Below, piece after piece: positions 22,011 to 51,660 of a stretch of DNA of 64,000 bases. How positions within the stretch are numbered: the first letter of the stretch is position 1; every line of letters begins with the position of its first letter. Source of the DNA: Prochlorococcus sp. AG-402-K10. Its GTDB lineage: Bacteria > Cyanobacteriota > Cyanobacteriia > PCC-6307 > Cyanobiaceae. Position numbers and translations under genes: made by a program. The notes beneath the pieces are model-generated. The model saw only the letters and a list, made by a program, of their open reading frames with translations, did not search any database and was not told the DNA's origin. The stretch lies in assembly GCA_003216835.1 (NCBI GenBank), contig QCIF01000004.1:62001-126000 (forward strand). Reading direction: 5' to 3'.

Positions 22011-22220
22011 TTGAATAAAACTTTTAGATTATCTCCATTATTCCTAATAACTCTTATATTTGGAGTTGGCTGCACTTCAAAGGTTGAAGAGAAAAGAATG
22101 CCCGCTCTTTTTGAAACCAGAAGAGAAGCTGAAAAAGCTGCCAAAAGTTTCAATTGCACTGGAGCACATAAAATGGGTAATAAGTGGATGCCTTGTGCAA
22201 CACATGGGCTAGCAAAATAA
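22011..22220 (+). CDS. DUF3721-like lipoprotein
   Basis: GVGCTSKVEEKRMPALFETRREAEKAAKSFNCTGAHKMGNKWMPCATHGLAK; near-copy of 5985-6245. Confidence 0.8.
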   Translation: MNKTFRLSPLFLITLIFGVGCTSKVEEKRMPALFETRREAEKAAKSFNCTGAHKMGNKWMPCATHGLAK

Positions 22221-24412: not shown

Positions 24413-24541
24413 TTAAAAAATACCTGGAATGATCCAGCCAAAAAGACCGTAGTTTACTATTAATGCGAAGAAGCCCATCATTGCCATCCTTCCATTAGTA
24501 ATTTCAGCATTTTGCCAAAAGTTAGGTTGTGATTTCTCCAT
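24413..24541 (-). CDS. hli: High-light-inducible protein
   Basis: MEKSQPNFWQNAEITNGRMAMMGFFALIVNYGLFGWIIPGIF. Confidence 0.9.
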   Translation of the reverse strand: MEKSQPNFWQNAEITNGRMAMMGFFALIVNYGLFGWIIPGIF

Positions 24542-24572
24542 TTTATTTGTGTTAAGTGTTTTAAGTTTTTGG

Positions 24573-24839
24573 TTAAACAAAGCCTGGAATAATTTGTCCA
24601 GTAGTTAGATATGCGCCAATAGCAGCCATAAGACCAAGCATTGCAAATCTACCGTTGATAGTTTCCGCAACTACTTTCTCCTTTTCAATTGTTTTTGTTT
24701 TAGTGCTTGAGTTTGTTTTTGTCATTTGATTTTGGTTTGAATAAATTAAATTCTCTTCTTGAAATTGTTTTGTTAAATATGCAATCAGTAATGCGGTTAT
24801 GGATACAATGAAAACCAGAAAACCTGTAAGAAGGCTCAT
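24573..24839 (-). CDS. hli: High-light-inducible protein with extra N-terminal TM
   Basis: MSLLTGFLVFIVSITALLIAYLTK... VAETINGRFAMLGLMAAIGAYLTTGQIIPGFV. Confidence 0.88.
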   Translation of the reverse strand: MSLLTGFLVFIVSITALLIAYLTKQFQEENLIYSNQNQMTKTNSSTKTKTIEKEKVVAETINGRFAMLGLMAAIGAYLTTGQIIPGFV

Positions 24840-25048
24840 TAAAAAATACCTGGAATAATTTGACCAGTAGTAACGTATGCACCTAGCAATGCAACGAAAC
24901 CAACCATTGCCCAACGGCCATTAACTTTTTCAGCATTTTGAGGGTAACCCTCGTATGAAACAGACTCATCTATGTATGGACGAGTTTCTGAAGGAAACAT
25001 ATTTTGTCTTCCATCAGATTCAGTTGTTATGTATGAAGAATTTGTCAT
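24839..25048 (-). CDS. hli: High-light-inducible protein
   Basis: NAEKVNGRWAMVGFVALLGAYVTTGQIIPGIF; TAATG coupling. Confidence 0.93.
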   Translation of the reverse strand: MTNSSYITTESDGRQNMFPSETRPYIDESVSYEGYPQNAEKVNGRWAMVGFVALLGAYVTTGQIIPGIF

Positions 25049-25155
25049 TAGAACCAACCTGGGATGATTTGACCAGTTGTTACGTAGGAACCAACAGCTG
25101 CTACGAAGCCAAGCATTGCTGCCCAACCATTAAATCTTTCTGCTTCGGGTGTCAT
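25048..25155 (-). CDS. hli: High-light-inducible protein (35 aa)
   Basis: MTPEAERFNGWAAMLGFVAAVGSYVTTGQIIPGWF. Confidence 0.93.
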   Translation of the reverse strand: MTPEAERFNGWAAMLGFVAAVGSYVTTGQIIPGWF

Positions 25156-25364
25156 AATTAGAAAAATTAGTATGTAAAGAAATATAACACATGTATTAAT
25201 CAATGTAAAGGAAATTATCTTTATTTCTATATAATTCAGTTTATCTATACGAATCTGTCACATTATTGTATAAATACTGTTGATTTCAGGTGATTGTTTT
25301 ACAAGGAAGATTTATAATCACTTATATCAATCTATAGGTCATGAAGATTAACTCCAGGCCTCCT

Positions 25365-26307: not shown

Positions 26308-26517
26308 TACATGAAAAATCCTTTTAATAAACTAAATCTTTTCAAATCCAAAGAAAAGAATAATCTCCCTAACATTGCTGAGCAGAGAGAGCTAGAAATT
26401 CAGAAAGAAAAAATTGAAAAAGAAAAAGAGTTTAGAGCTTATGTATCAGCAATAAATCAAAGATATGACAAGATGACTAATACAAAGAGAAAGAATTTTT
26501 TTAGAAACGCTGCATAA
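26308..26517 (+). CDS. Small basic protein, paralog of 18358-18596
   Basis: ATG start within 26278 ORF: MKNPFNKLNLFKSK...YVSAINQRYDKMTNTKRKNFFRNAA. Confidence 0.6.
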   Translation, partial: YMKNPFNKLNLFKSKEKNNLPNIAEQRELEIQKEKIEKEKEFRAYVSAINQRYDKMTNTKRKNFFRNAA

Positions 26518-27219: not shown

Positions 27220-27644
27220 ATTTCTCATGAACTGATTCAGTAAATTCAGTCTCATTTAAATAATTGACTAAATCTAATGGGTCGATATTTACATCAAACC
27301 ATTCATCGTAATTTATATAATTTGGCTCGGCATAATAAGTCATTCCTTATTGGTAGCAATAGGATTTCTAATAAAAAGTACAAATACTACAAAAATGATT
27401 ATTTAACTAGATAATTGGGTGACTAGCGGAACTTTACTACCTACTGAATAACCAGTAACACAAAAAATTAAAAGAGGTCTTTTACATAAAGAAGGTAAGA
27501 CCACGAGACCTAGCAGGAAACCTTGGAACGGGTTGTGCTTAATTAATTAATAACTTTGATAAAATTCTAAAGATGTAATAACAAGTACAAAAACAAATCT
27601 TGATGGAATTTCCAAACATTATCGGTAATTAAATAAAACGCTCA

Positions 27645-27968
27645 CTACTTGCACAACTCCTTTTGGGGTGTGTTCCTATTGGGATTTATTCTATTAAGTA
27701 GTGTCTGATACTTTATAAGCGAAGCTAATCATAGTTATAGTTTTTGCCTATTAAATAGATTATTTATTGGTATAGCTTGTAACCAGAAATAAAGATAAAA
27801 ATAATTAACTTATAACTAACTTCTATTTATGACTATGAAACCTATTTCAGAAGATCTTTATAAGAAATTAGTGGAGGGTTATAAAAAATGAAAAGGCTAT
27901 TTGAGTTATTGGCTACTTTCCTAGCTTTTGATATAGGTCTTATTTTTCATGTCTTTATGACATATTAA
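27645..27968 (+). repeat. Duplicated cassette copy A (candidate ncRNA plus two micro-ORFs)
   Basis: Long similarity to 40256-40597; CACTACTT...AAGTAGTG closing stem; ORFs MKPISEDLYKKLVEGYKK and MKRLFELLATFLAFDIGLIFHVFMTY. Confidence 0.75.
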
Positions 27969-27988
27969 ATCGCATCTTCAAATCTATT

Positions 27989-28240
27989 CTAGGGGAATGC
28001 TTCTTTTTGCTCTGCTTGTCGTTTTTTTAACATTGCATAAGCTTGTGAAGCCCATTCTCGATGTACTCGTAAATTGTCATCATCCCACGCAAAATAATCA
28101 TCTAACTTCTTTTTAAGTGATTTTCTTATTTTAAATACTTCTTCGACTCCTAGATAAATTATTACCAGCACCTTAACTACGTTTACTGCAACAGCTGCTA
28201 TATTTTCAATTCTTTGATCATATTGCATTTGGTCTTCCAA
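27989..28240 (-). CDS. Hypothetical protein with TM
   Basis: 83 aa ORF. Confidence 0.55.
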   Translation of the reverse strand: MEDQMQYDQRIENIAAVAVNVVKVLVIIYLGVEEVFKIRKSLKKKLDDYFAWDDDNLRVHREWASQAYAMLKKRQAEQKEAFP

Positions 28241-34239: not shown

Positions 34240-34463
34240 AAACCCCATACCACCCATCACTTTCCTAATTAGGAACTTTGATGGATAATAAATTTATACC
34301 CAAAAAAGTTTGGATAACACGTCCTCCAAGCTTAAAAAATCGCTGAGATCCCTTGATATGACTGAAGAAAATTTTTGGCTAATGAAAAGTGAGCGCGACT
34401 AGCTATAACTGCGATCTCAAGGAATCGTAATTTTTTACTCAAACTTTACTCAAACTTTTACTT
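34240..34463 (+). repeat. att scar (class 1 arm) with truncated EVE start MTEENFWLMKSERD*
   Basis: CCCATACCACCCATCACTTTCCTAATTAGGAACTTTGATGGATAATAAATTTATA...CGCTGAGATCCCTTGATATGACTGAAGAAAATTTTTGGCTAATGAAAAGTGAGCGCGACTAG...ACTCAAACTTTACTCAAACTTTT. Confidence 0.85.
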
Positions 34464-39332: not shown

Positions 39333-39557
39333 ATGGACAGAACGCAACAAATAAAAGAAGCTCATCCTTGGCTCAGCTACGACGAAGCAGTAAAGGTTCT
39401 TCTTTATCATCATCAGGGTTCAATATGGATAAAGAAACTCGAAAGAGAAACACTTGAGAGGTCGATGGAAGCATTCACAAAGCTCGTTAAATCAAAGAGT
39501 AAGAAAGCTCTTGAACCCTTCGTAGAGTACGTTCTAAACGTTTACTCCAAGACATAA
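39333..39557 (+). CDS. Small hypothetical protein
   Basis: 74 aa; MDRTQQIKEAHPWLSYDEAVKVLLYHHQGSIW. Confidence 0.6.
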   Translation: MDRTQQIKEAHPWLSYDEAVKVLLYHHQGSIWIKKLERETLERSMEAFTKLVKSKSKKALEPFVEYVLNVYSKT

Positions 39558-39815
39558 ATTGACTTTATATAGTACGAGTCAATTTAATAACCTCTCTGGT
39601 AGTTGGAATTTCTGGAGGGGTTTCTTGTTTTAAGCAGGTAGTTGATTTGAAATTGGGATAATTTTAACTCTTCTAATTTTTGATACTAATTGGACTGCTT
39701 CCATATAAGTTGCGTAGAAGCCAAGTGCCAGATAAACAATAAACTTAAGCATTTAATAAATTCTTCTATATATATAAAAACGAATCTATGCCAACAAGCA
39801 ATAGGGTTTAAATTA

Positions 39816-40255: not shown

Positions 40256-40597
40256 TAATTAAATACTTACTACTTGCACCACTCCTGTTGATGTGTGTTC
40301 CTCTTGGGATTTAATCTATTAAGTAGTGTCTGATACGCTATAAGAAAAGCTAATCATAGTTATAGTTTTTGCATATTAAATAGATTATTTATTCGTATAG
40401 CTTGTAACCAGAAACAAGGATAAAGATAATTAACTTGTAAGTAACTTCTATTTAAGATTATGCACCCTATCTCAGAAGAACTTTATAAGAAATTAGTAGA
40501 GGGTTCTAAAAAATGAAAAGGAGAAATAAGCTATTGGTTGCTTTTCTAGCTTTTGATATAGGAGTGAATTTATCCCATCTTTACGTCTTCACTTAAT
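40256..40597 (+). repeat. Duplicated cassette copy B (candidate ncRNA plus two micro-ORFs)
   Basis: Similarity to 27645-27968; TACTACTTGCACC...AAGTAGTGTCTG; ORFs MHPISEELYKKLVEGSKK and MKRRNKLLVAFLAFDIGVNLSHLYVFT. Confidence 0.75.
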
Positions 40598-48276: not shown

Positions 48277-48490
48277 GTTTCCCTAAGAAAACCCAAGTGA
48301 TTAAATTACATTTCCCTAAGAAAACCCCTTTTAAATAACTATTGTTTCCCTAAGAAAACCCTGCTGAATAGATAACATTTCCCTACAAAACTCTAGTGAT
48401 ATAGATAATGTTTCCCTAAAAAACCATTGCTAAATAATTATTGTTTCCCTAAGAACCCCGTGTTAAATAGATATATTGTTCCCTCTTTCC
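48277..48490 (+). repeat. Seven-copy iteron array, period about 33-34 bp
   Basis: GTTTCCCTAAGAAAACCC-type copies at about 48277, 48310, 48344, 48377, 48410, 48443, 48477. Confidence 0.88.
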
Positions 48491-48714
48491 AACCGCTCGC
48501 TTCGCTCGCTTTTTATTGACTGCTGAAAGCAGCCAAAGGTTTGCTACGTTCAACTATCAAGCAGAAACTACGGACACTATGGGGTGTCCTTCGTTTACTC
48601 GCTTTGCTCGTTAGCTTGATAAAGATATCTAGAGATATATGACCAGATATTCGACACGAATACGATCCGTGTCTTATAGAGATATATATACTGCCATGAC
48701 TAGATAATTTTGAT

Positions 48715-49500
48715 GACGGATGTATACAGGGAGAAGTAACCACCACCTTATACAGGAGGAGAAAACTAAACCCTTATTTCTAAAGGGATCTAACCGATAC
48801 GACCCTTATACAGGGGGAGAGAGAATCTAATCCGACATGTATACAGGGAGAGATACCGATCGCCACCTAATACAGGAGGAGAAAAACCCTGAAATAACTA
48901 GGAATTTTCCAACCACTACCCTATACAGGGAGAGGGAACTCCCACATATCAATAAACAACCATTACTAAATAAAGGTTGAGAGGTTAACCGCCAACGTAT
49001 ACAGGGAGAAACCGATCCGACATCTATACAGGGAGAAAAAATCCTCACAATAACTAGGAATTTTTCGATGACACATGTATACAGGGAAAAATACTGGTAT
49101 GACTAGAAATTTTCCAAGGAGACCCTTATACAGGGGGAGAGAAAATAACGATCACTACCCTATACAGGGAGAAATACTGCTATGACTAGGAAATTTGCGA
49201 TCCCTGATGTATACAGGGGGAGAGACCGATCCCACATCTATACAGGAAGAAGAGAACCCTTATGAATAAAGGGGTTTGACCGACCCCCTACGTATACAGG
49301 GGGAGAGCGATCCGACATCTATAAGAGGGAGAAACCTAAACCCTTATGGATAAAGGGATCTGACCAATCCGACCCGTATAAGGGGGGAGAGAAGTTTTAA
49401 CCCCCGATGTATAAGGGAGAAGAGAACTCCCACAAATAAGGTATTAAGACTCTCTATATCAAGTTAGAAGGTTAACCACTACCTAATACAGGGAGAAAAA
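48715..49500 (+). repeat. Composite interspersed repeat array (TATACAGGGRGAGA, CTAGGAATTTTCC, AAACCCTTAT..TAAAGGG)
   Basis: About 18 copies of the TATACAGGG core counted by eye between 48721 and 49495. Confidence 0.88.
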
Positions 49501-51322: not shown

Positions 51323-51660
51323 AAGAGTGAGCCGGACTAGCTATAACTGGGTTTTACTTACTGAGTTTGGATAAACATAAATAATAGTTTGGATAACCAC
51401 TAAACCCTTTTCATAATAAGTCAGTAATAGACTAGGTTTCTCAATAAGTAACTATTAATGAGAACAGATCTGTTACGTGACAACAATATCTAAGGTAAAA
51501 TTCAAATAATTAGGGATTCAATGCAGGCTAAAAGCTAGAAGCTGAATCCCTCAGAAATTTAAAAGTTATCCAAACTTTATCCAAACCACCCATTTTCGCC
51601 GAGACTCTAGATTATGACAGATTGTAACTACTGGCTAATGAAAAGTGAGCCTGATGCTTA
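51323..51660 (+). repeat. Right-end att region with arm-type repeats and restored EVE 5' end
   Basis: AGAGTGAGCCGGACTAGCTATAACTGGG (51324-); GTTTGGATAA x2 (51366-51396); TTATCCAAACTTTATCCAAAC (51566-51586); ACTACTGGCTAATGAAAAGTGAGCC. Confidence 0.75.

Follow-up and report, generated by a model that had tools for sequence, protein, structure and literature searches.

The cassette that occurs twice in the 64,000-nucleotide stretch of Prochlorococcus sp. AG-402-K10 analysed here (contig QCIF01000004.1; the window) probably gives rise to its own dicistronic mRNA, from which two micropeptides would be made, and is possibly tied to the Hlip light-stress system. A preliminary description had read the same region as a candidate non-coding RNA accompanied by two micro-ORFs. 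The analyses presented here strongly support a coding micro-gene, judged from its sequence evolution, and we suggest that the candidate-ncRNA reading should give way to the coding one.

The two copies (A at 27643-27968 and B at 40268-40596) are 87-88% identical over about 300 nt (E 8e-106 in a search within the organism's own genome), and each contains one ORF of 18 codons and one of 26 or 27 codons. In this duplicated cassette of about 330 bp, the positions and lengths of the ORFs are as first described. Its features are as follows.

27643-27704, forward strand: copy A, 5' stem-loop region of the preliminary description; outside the stretch kept in relatives and not a conserved structure
27698-27711, forward strand: copy A, candidate GTA-N8-TAC (NtcA-type) site, GTAGTGTCTGATAC
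27715-27729, forward strand: copy A, inverted repeat ATAAG-N5-CT(A)AT, candidate operator
27736-27741, forward strand: copy A, candidate -10 box TATAGT (predicted)
27765-27789, forward strand: copy A, conserved leader motif TATTSGTATA..TTGTAACCAGAAA
27835-27891, forward strand: copy A, ORF1, MKPISEDLYKKLVEGYKK, 18 aa; an alternative in-frame ATG at 27829 would extend it to 20 aa
27888-27968, forward strand: copy A, ORF2, MKRLFELLATFLAFDIGLIFHVFMTY, 26 aa; overlaps ORF1 as ATGA
40323-40336, forward strand: copy B, candidate GTA-N8-TAC site
40340-40354, forward strand: copy B, inverted repeat ATAAGAAAAGCTAAT
40390-40414, forward strand: copy B, conserved leader motif
40460-40516, forward strand: copy B, ORF1, MHPISEELYKKLVEGSKK, 18 aa
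40513-40596, forward strand: copy B, ORF2, MKRRNKLLVAFLAFDIGVNLSHLYVFT, 27 aa; overlaps ORF1 as ATGA

A 1-nt gap in ORF2 of copy A relative to copy B shifts its C-terminus. The same genome holds a third copy (C6:14430), whose ORF1 is intact and whose ORF2 has seven codons, and a fourth, decayed one (C1:121209). In relatives, homology begins at about query position 35-66, and many of the best matches span 51-300, i.e., the leader and the ORFs without the 5' stem.

The window abounds in further intergenic duplications. The leader and first 14 codons of an EVE-domain-like gene at 51614 (MTDCNYWLMKSEPD...) occur again, as duplicates in the form of tiny ORFs, at 34358 (MTEENFWLMKSERD) and 45979 (MTDVNYWLMKSEPD), and repeat families D2-D6 include further partial copies at 22220 and 40975. 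The repeated GATTGACAGTCGATCTAACATAGAGGGATAAAACCCTCTTT (at 26516, 29636, 39813, 41673 and 43659, among others; families D4, D8 and D9) looks like a duplicated terminator-like element, and short degenerate repeats (TTTCCCTAAGAAAACCC; TATACAGGGGGAGAG) are densely arrayed over 48279-49413.

ORF1 (consensus M.PISEELYKK.VE.SKK) is nearly universal in the genus and appears to be confined to it. Of 55 genomes of the genus with a completeness of 80% or more, 54 match an 18-residue profile of ORF1, mostly at E values of 1e-8 to 1e-12 per genome. The profile has no match in 245 genomes that represent 39 further genera of the same family. A nucleotide model of the cassette agrees with this distribution, and a DNA search with the cassette matched 118 of 200 genomes of the genus. 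A degenerate DNA pattern for ORF1 occurs in at least 117 stretches of GTDB contigs; the 80 matches listed all come from single cells, MAGs and strains of Prochlorococcus or Synechococcaceae, including MIT 9201, MIT 9302 and MIT 9401. ORF2 has been lost in a few lineages (L044, L068, L096 and the C6 copy mentioned above). ORF1 persists where ORF2 is gone, and is the most widely kept part of the cassette.

Both frames of the pair are under purifying selection (dN/dS 0.10-0.17). For ORF2, dN/dS is 0.104 over 77 distinct sequences from loci found without the use of ORF2. For ORF1, a value of 0.098 on loci found by the ORF1 pattern is biased toward conserved ORF1 and unreliable, and hence the ratio was calculated again for loci identified through nucleotide similarity, giving 0.167 (29 distinct sequences). 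Third codon positions hold 75% of the differences in ORF2 and 57% of those in ORF1, shifted reading frames of the same DNA reverse the dN/dS ratio, and the 51 nt upstream show no codon periodicity in their differences. We regard translation of ORF1 as very probable, and that of ORF2 as only slightly less so.

ORF1 and ORF2 had no profile match in Pfam, NCBIfam or PHROGs, and a comparison by sequence with solved structures gave no meaningful match to the peptides. ORF2 is hydrophobic (mostly MSKLLIALLALDIGVSLSKVFIFT, about 24-27 aa), and the best 19-residue hydropathy of its common form is 2.2. An Asp lies within the hydrophobic stretch, which is unusual for a simple membrane anchor. A phage origin was rejected: the ORF1 DNA pattern has no match in viral contigs, the phage collection gave no protein match, and the one match in its DNA search, to a Staphylococcus phage, is at chance level.

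The two frames overlap at a conserved stop/start junction, as would be expected for a translationally coupled pair. Of 149 instances, 134 have the ORF1 stop and the ORF2 start overlapping as ATGA, and 3 as TAATG; ORF2 is therefore probably translated by coupling to ORF1. Within ORF1 of copy A, GGAGGG lies nine bases upstream of the ORF2 start. No strong ribosome-binding site was found ahead of ORF1.

Several elements upstream of the ORFs are candidate promoter elements. In 25 of 28 representatives, against 0.36 expected, the inverted repeat ATAAG-N5-CTTAT is found about 119 nt ahead of ORF1 (-114 to -123). The three exceptions all belong to the four representatives that had no detected ORF2. 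The candidate NtcA-type motif GTA-N8-TAC is present in 13 of the 28 (0.57 expected), and deep low-light-type relatives lack it. The window copies have the candidate -10 box after the inverted repeat, and the leader motif TATTCGTATA is nearly invariant. A search for a regulon of the inverted repeat found no more matches per genome than a reversed control. Three genomes (L251, L253 and L254, position 1500) carry an exact ATAAGAAAAACTTAT, the same palindrome as in the cassette promoter, about 117 nt upstream of the start of petF (ferredoxin), which we treat as a lead only.

The preliminary description had also proposed a conserved RNA stem at the 5' end, closed by ACTACTT/AAGTAGT. These letters are found in copies A and B alike, and the 5' stem region is common only to the window copies and the B-type copies of close relatives. 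Among five alignable copies, no pair has changed on both sides, and the covariation score of the stem was equalled by shuffles in 481 of 500 cases. The stem folds well on its own in copy A (z -3.4) and does not in copy B (z -0.8), where the inner hairpin breaks. A closely similar copy in a relative (G061 copy 1), 91% identical to the cassette from position 38 on, lacks the 5' stem region, with damage to each of the two helices. RNAalifold predicted no conserved pair over 28 diverse representatives, and no Rfam family matched the cassette. We thus reject a structured ncRNA formed by the 5' 75 nt or the leader. The 5' stem-loop region probably lies upstream of the transcript. Rfam does place two sRNA genes elsewhere in the window, Yfr13 at 39513-39608 and Yfr20 at 2689-2777.

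The overall reading first given to the cassette, that both stem and peptides are conserved, therefore stands for the peptides, with their near-universal presence, purifying selection and preserved overlap, and falls for the stem. The argument made from the two window copies alone would have failed in any case: ORF1 of A and B differ by two silent and four replacement changes, and purifying selection on ORF1 is visible only in the wider family, not in this pair.

In HL-type genomes the cassette stands alone between a gene for a 69-aa protein and a convergent NTF2-like gene, and in most HL genomes it is single-copy at this conserved place. The downstream gene faces the cassette, which therefore forms an independent unit. 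Deep low-light-type relatives have the stand-alone cassette behind a thiD-like kinase gene and not near hli. Given that the downstream gene is not fixed, the cassette is not an attenuator leader.

The only functional clue is a linkage of ORF1 to hli genes, reached by way of a weak second match of the nucleotide model in genome G015. Eleven genomes, examined in their gene context, have ORF1 paralogues (MEPISPELYKKL...) that start 1-2 nt past the hli stop codon. The hli genes concerned are of two types: the NGRWAMIG type in 10 genomes (G008, G012, G015, G022, G025, G028, G051, G105, G123 and G144) and the NGWAAMLG type in one (G092). A twelfth genome (G073) has the paralogue within an hli cluster. 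Some of these paralogues are followed by an overlapping hydrophobic ORF (MSPLxEFLFxVISFTV). Only a minority of genomes carry the hli-linked form, in which the second ORF is frequently disrupted. Other recurrent weak second matches, at one place in HL genomes, fall inside a Fur-like regulator gene and are due to chance. The window itself has a tandem hli cluster on the reverse strand at 24416-25160, at a distance of 2.5 kb from copy A. One hli of this cluster is followed by a TAATG-coupled hydrophobic frame (MSLLTGFLVFIVSITALLIAYLTKQFQEEN...), which continues in phase into the next hli.

Taken together, coding, overlap geometry, conservation and the hli linkage of ORF1 are supported by sequence evolution. 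In the scenario that we prefer, the dicistronic micro-gene would have a regulated promoter with the inverted repeat and, in part of the genus, the NtcA-type site as well. Transcription from a start site placed by prediction would give a short mRNA whose leader, some 90 nt long, is unstructured. ORF1 would yield a charged, probably amphipathic peptide of 18 aa, and ORF2, by re-initiation coupled at the stop/start junction, a peptide of 24-27 aa predicted to span the membrane once; ORF2 could then be the membrane anchor and ORF1 its cytoplasmic partner. The pair would most likely work with the high-light-inducible proteins, because ORF1 paralogues sit directly behind hli genes in hli operons, and the site of action would most likely be the thylakoid membrane under stress. 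We consider such an Hlip or thylakoid role possible, though hardly more than that.

Some aspects of the cassette recall known systems. The best candidate from the literature was Yfr6 (PMC1242208, PMC2518516), a short transcript of Prochlorococcus MED4 and SS120 that carries an ORF of 33 aa (PMC1242208, PMC2864571) and whose 5' UTR is the Downstream-peptide (glutamine-II) motif (PMC2864571). Like Yfr6, the cassette would be a short Prochlorococcus transcript with a central tiny ORF, and the Yfr6 ORF starts at nt 97, near the geometry that we infer for the cassette. However, Yfr6 combines a structured motif with a single ORF, whereas the cassette has two overlapping ORFs and no conserved structure. 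The Downstream-peptide RNA (RF01704) had no match in 27500-28100 even at E 10 and none at the gathering threshold in the window, and membership in Yfr6 was rejected since the motif is absent. Yfr8-21 (Steglich 2008, PMC2518516) were compared with the cassette by tabulated length, context and structure only. Yfr17 is the closest of them in length, but the orientation of its neighbours is not that seen here; the cassette may overlap one of these transcripts.

NsiR6 and Norf4 are cyanobacterial micro-proteins under stress promoters (PMC5126843). Like the cassette they involve unannotated tiny ORFs, some with NtcA-type sites, that are kept by selection (PMC5126843), but they have no profile match to it, and the cassette differs in having overlapping peptides and a family confined to one genus. 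Prochlorococcus hli operons share with it the ORF1 paralogues found directly behind hli genes in some genomes, whereas ORF1 and ORF2 are without the chlorophyll-binding helix of Hlips and the stand-alone cassette is without an hli gene. The Pfam family Chloroa_b-bind matched neither ORF1 nor ORF2, and gave a weak match for the neighbouring Hlip only. In hok/mok, an upstream coding frame overlaps, and is coupled to, a small hydrophobic peptide gene. The cassette has the same overlapping arrangement, but here strong selection acts on ORF1, which outlasts ORF2.

This last likeness raises the question of a type I toxin-antitoxin-like module, in which ORF2 would be a small hydrophobic toxin coupled to ORF1 and controlled by a putative antisense RNA. 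The size and hydrophobicity of ORF2, the coupled, overlapping upstream ORF and the presence of several copies in one genome would suit such a module, but we think it unlikely: ORF1 is retained where ORF2 is lost, ORF1 is linked to hli, and most HL genomes have a single copy at a conserved place. We know of no antisense RNA for the cassette. A regulatory RNA, either a Yfr-type sRNA or a riboswitch-like leader with incidental ORFs, appears quite unlikely. The absence of conserved pairs and of an Rfam match speaks against it, as do the ORFs, which are the most strongly conserved part and have a codon pattern, and the lack of a conserved downstream gene for regulation in cis; the long, AT-rich leader with its conserved motif would suit such an RNA, as would the location of many Prochlorococcus sRNAs in islands (PMC2518516) and of the Yfr13 gene about 650 nt from copy B.

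Alternatively, a -1 slip on the A-run AAAAAATGA could fuse ORF1 and ORF2 into one protein of about 42 aa. The A-run is common at the junction, and L051 has an in-frame junction, yet the overlap stays where the run is broken (TCTCAAAAATGA, TCTAGAAAATGA, TCAAGATAATGA, TCTAAATAATGA), with TCAAGATAATGA destroying the run in genome G104, and five instances with a run 1 nt shorter retain ORF2 with a longer ORF1 overlap. We therefore do not favour this fusion, which is very improbable; coupled re-initiation at ATGA seems the simplest reading. Least probable of all is that the cassette is a functionless spreading repeat and its copies debris. Four copies in the organism's own genome, one of them decayed, and a window rich in other intergenic duplications might suggest as much, but the cassette is under purifying selection and is kept by nearly every genome in the genus, which argues to the contrary.

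From the perspective of the dicistronic micro-gene, its kind is ordinary, that of a conserved micro-gene, and as far as these tools show the family is new within the libraries searched, with the Steglich 2008 sRNAs compared by description only. The pair would be among the smallest protein-coding genes of the genus. Gene callers discard ORFs of this size, so that a gene found almost throughout a very abundant phototroph has apparently been overlooked. Our tentative proposal, offered as less probable than not, is that a peptide and a coupled membrane micropeptide form a near-core gene pair that works with Hlips in light or nutrient stress, and that some lineages have built ORF1 into their hli operons. 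If the link to Hlips holds, short peptides join the light-stress machinery, and the overlap, the candidate operator and the paralogues would be handles for testing. The pair would then be a hitherto unseen accessory of the photoprotection machinery in an abundant phototroph of the ocean.
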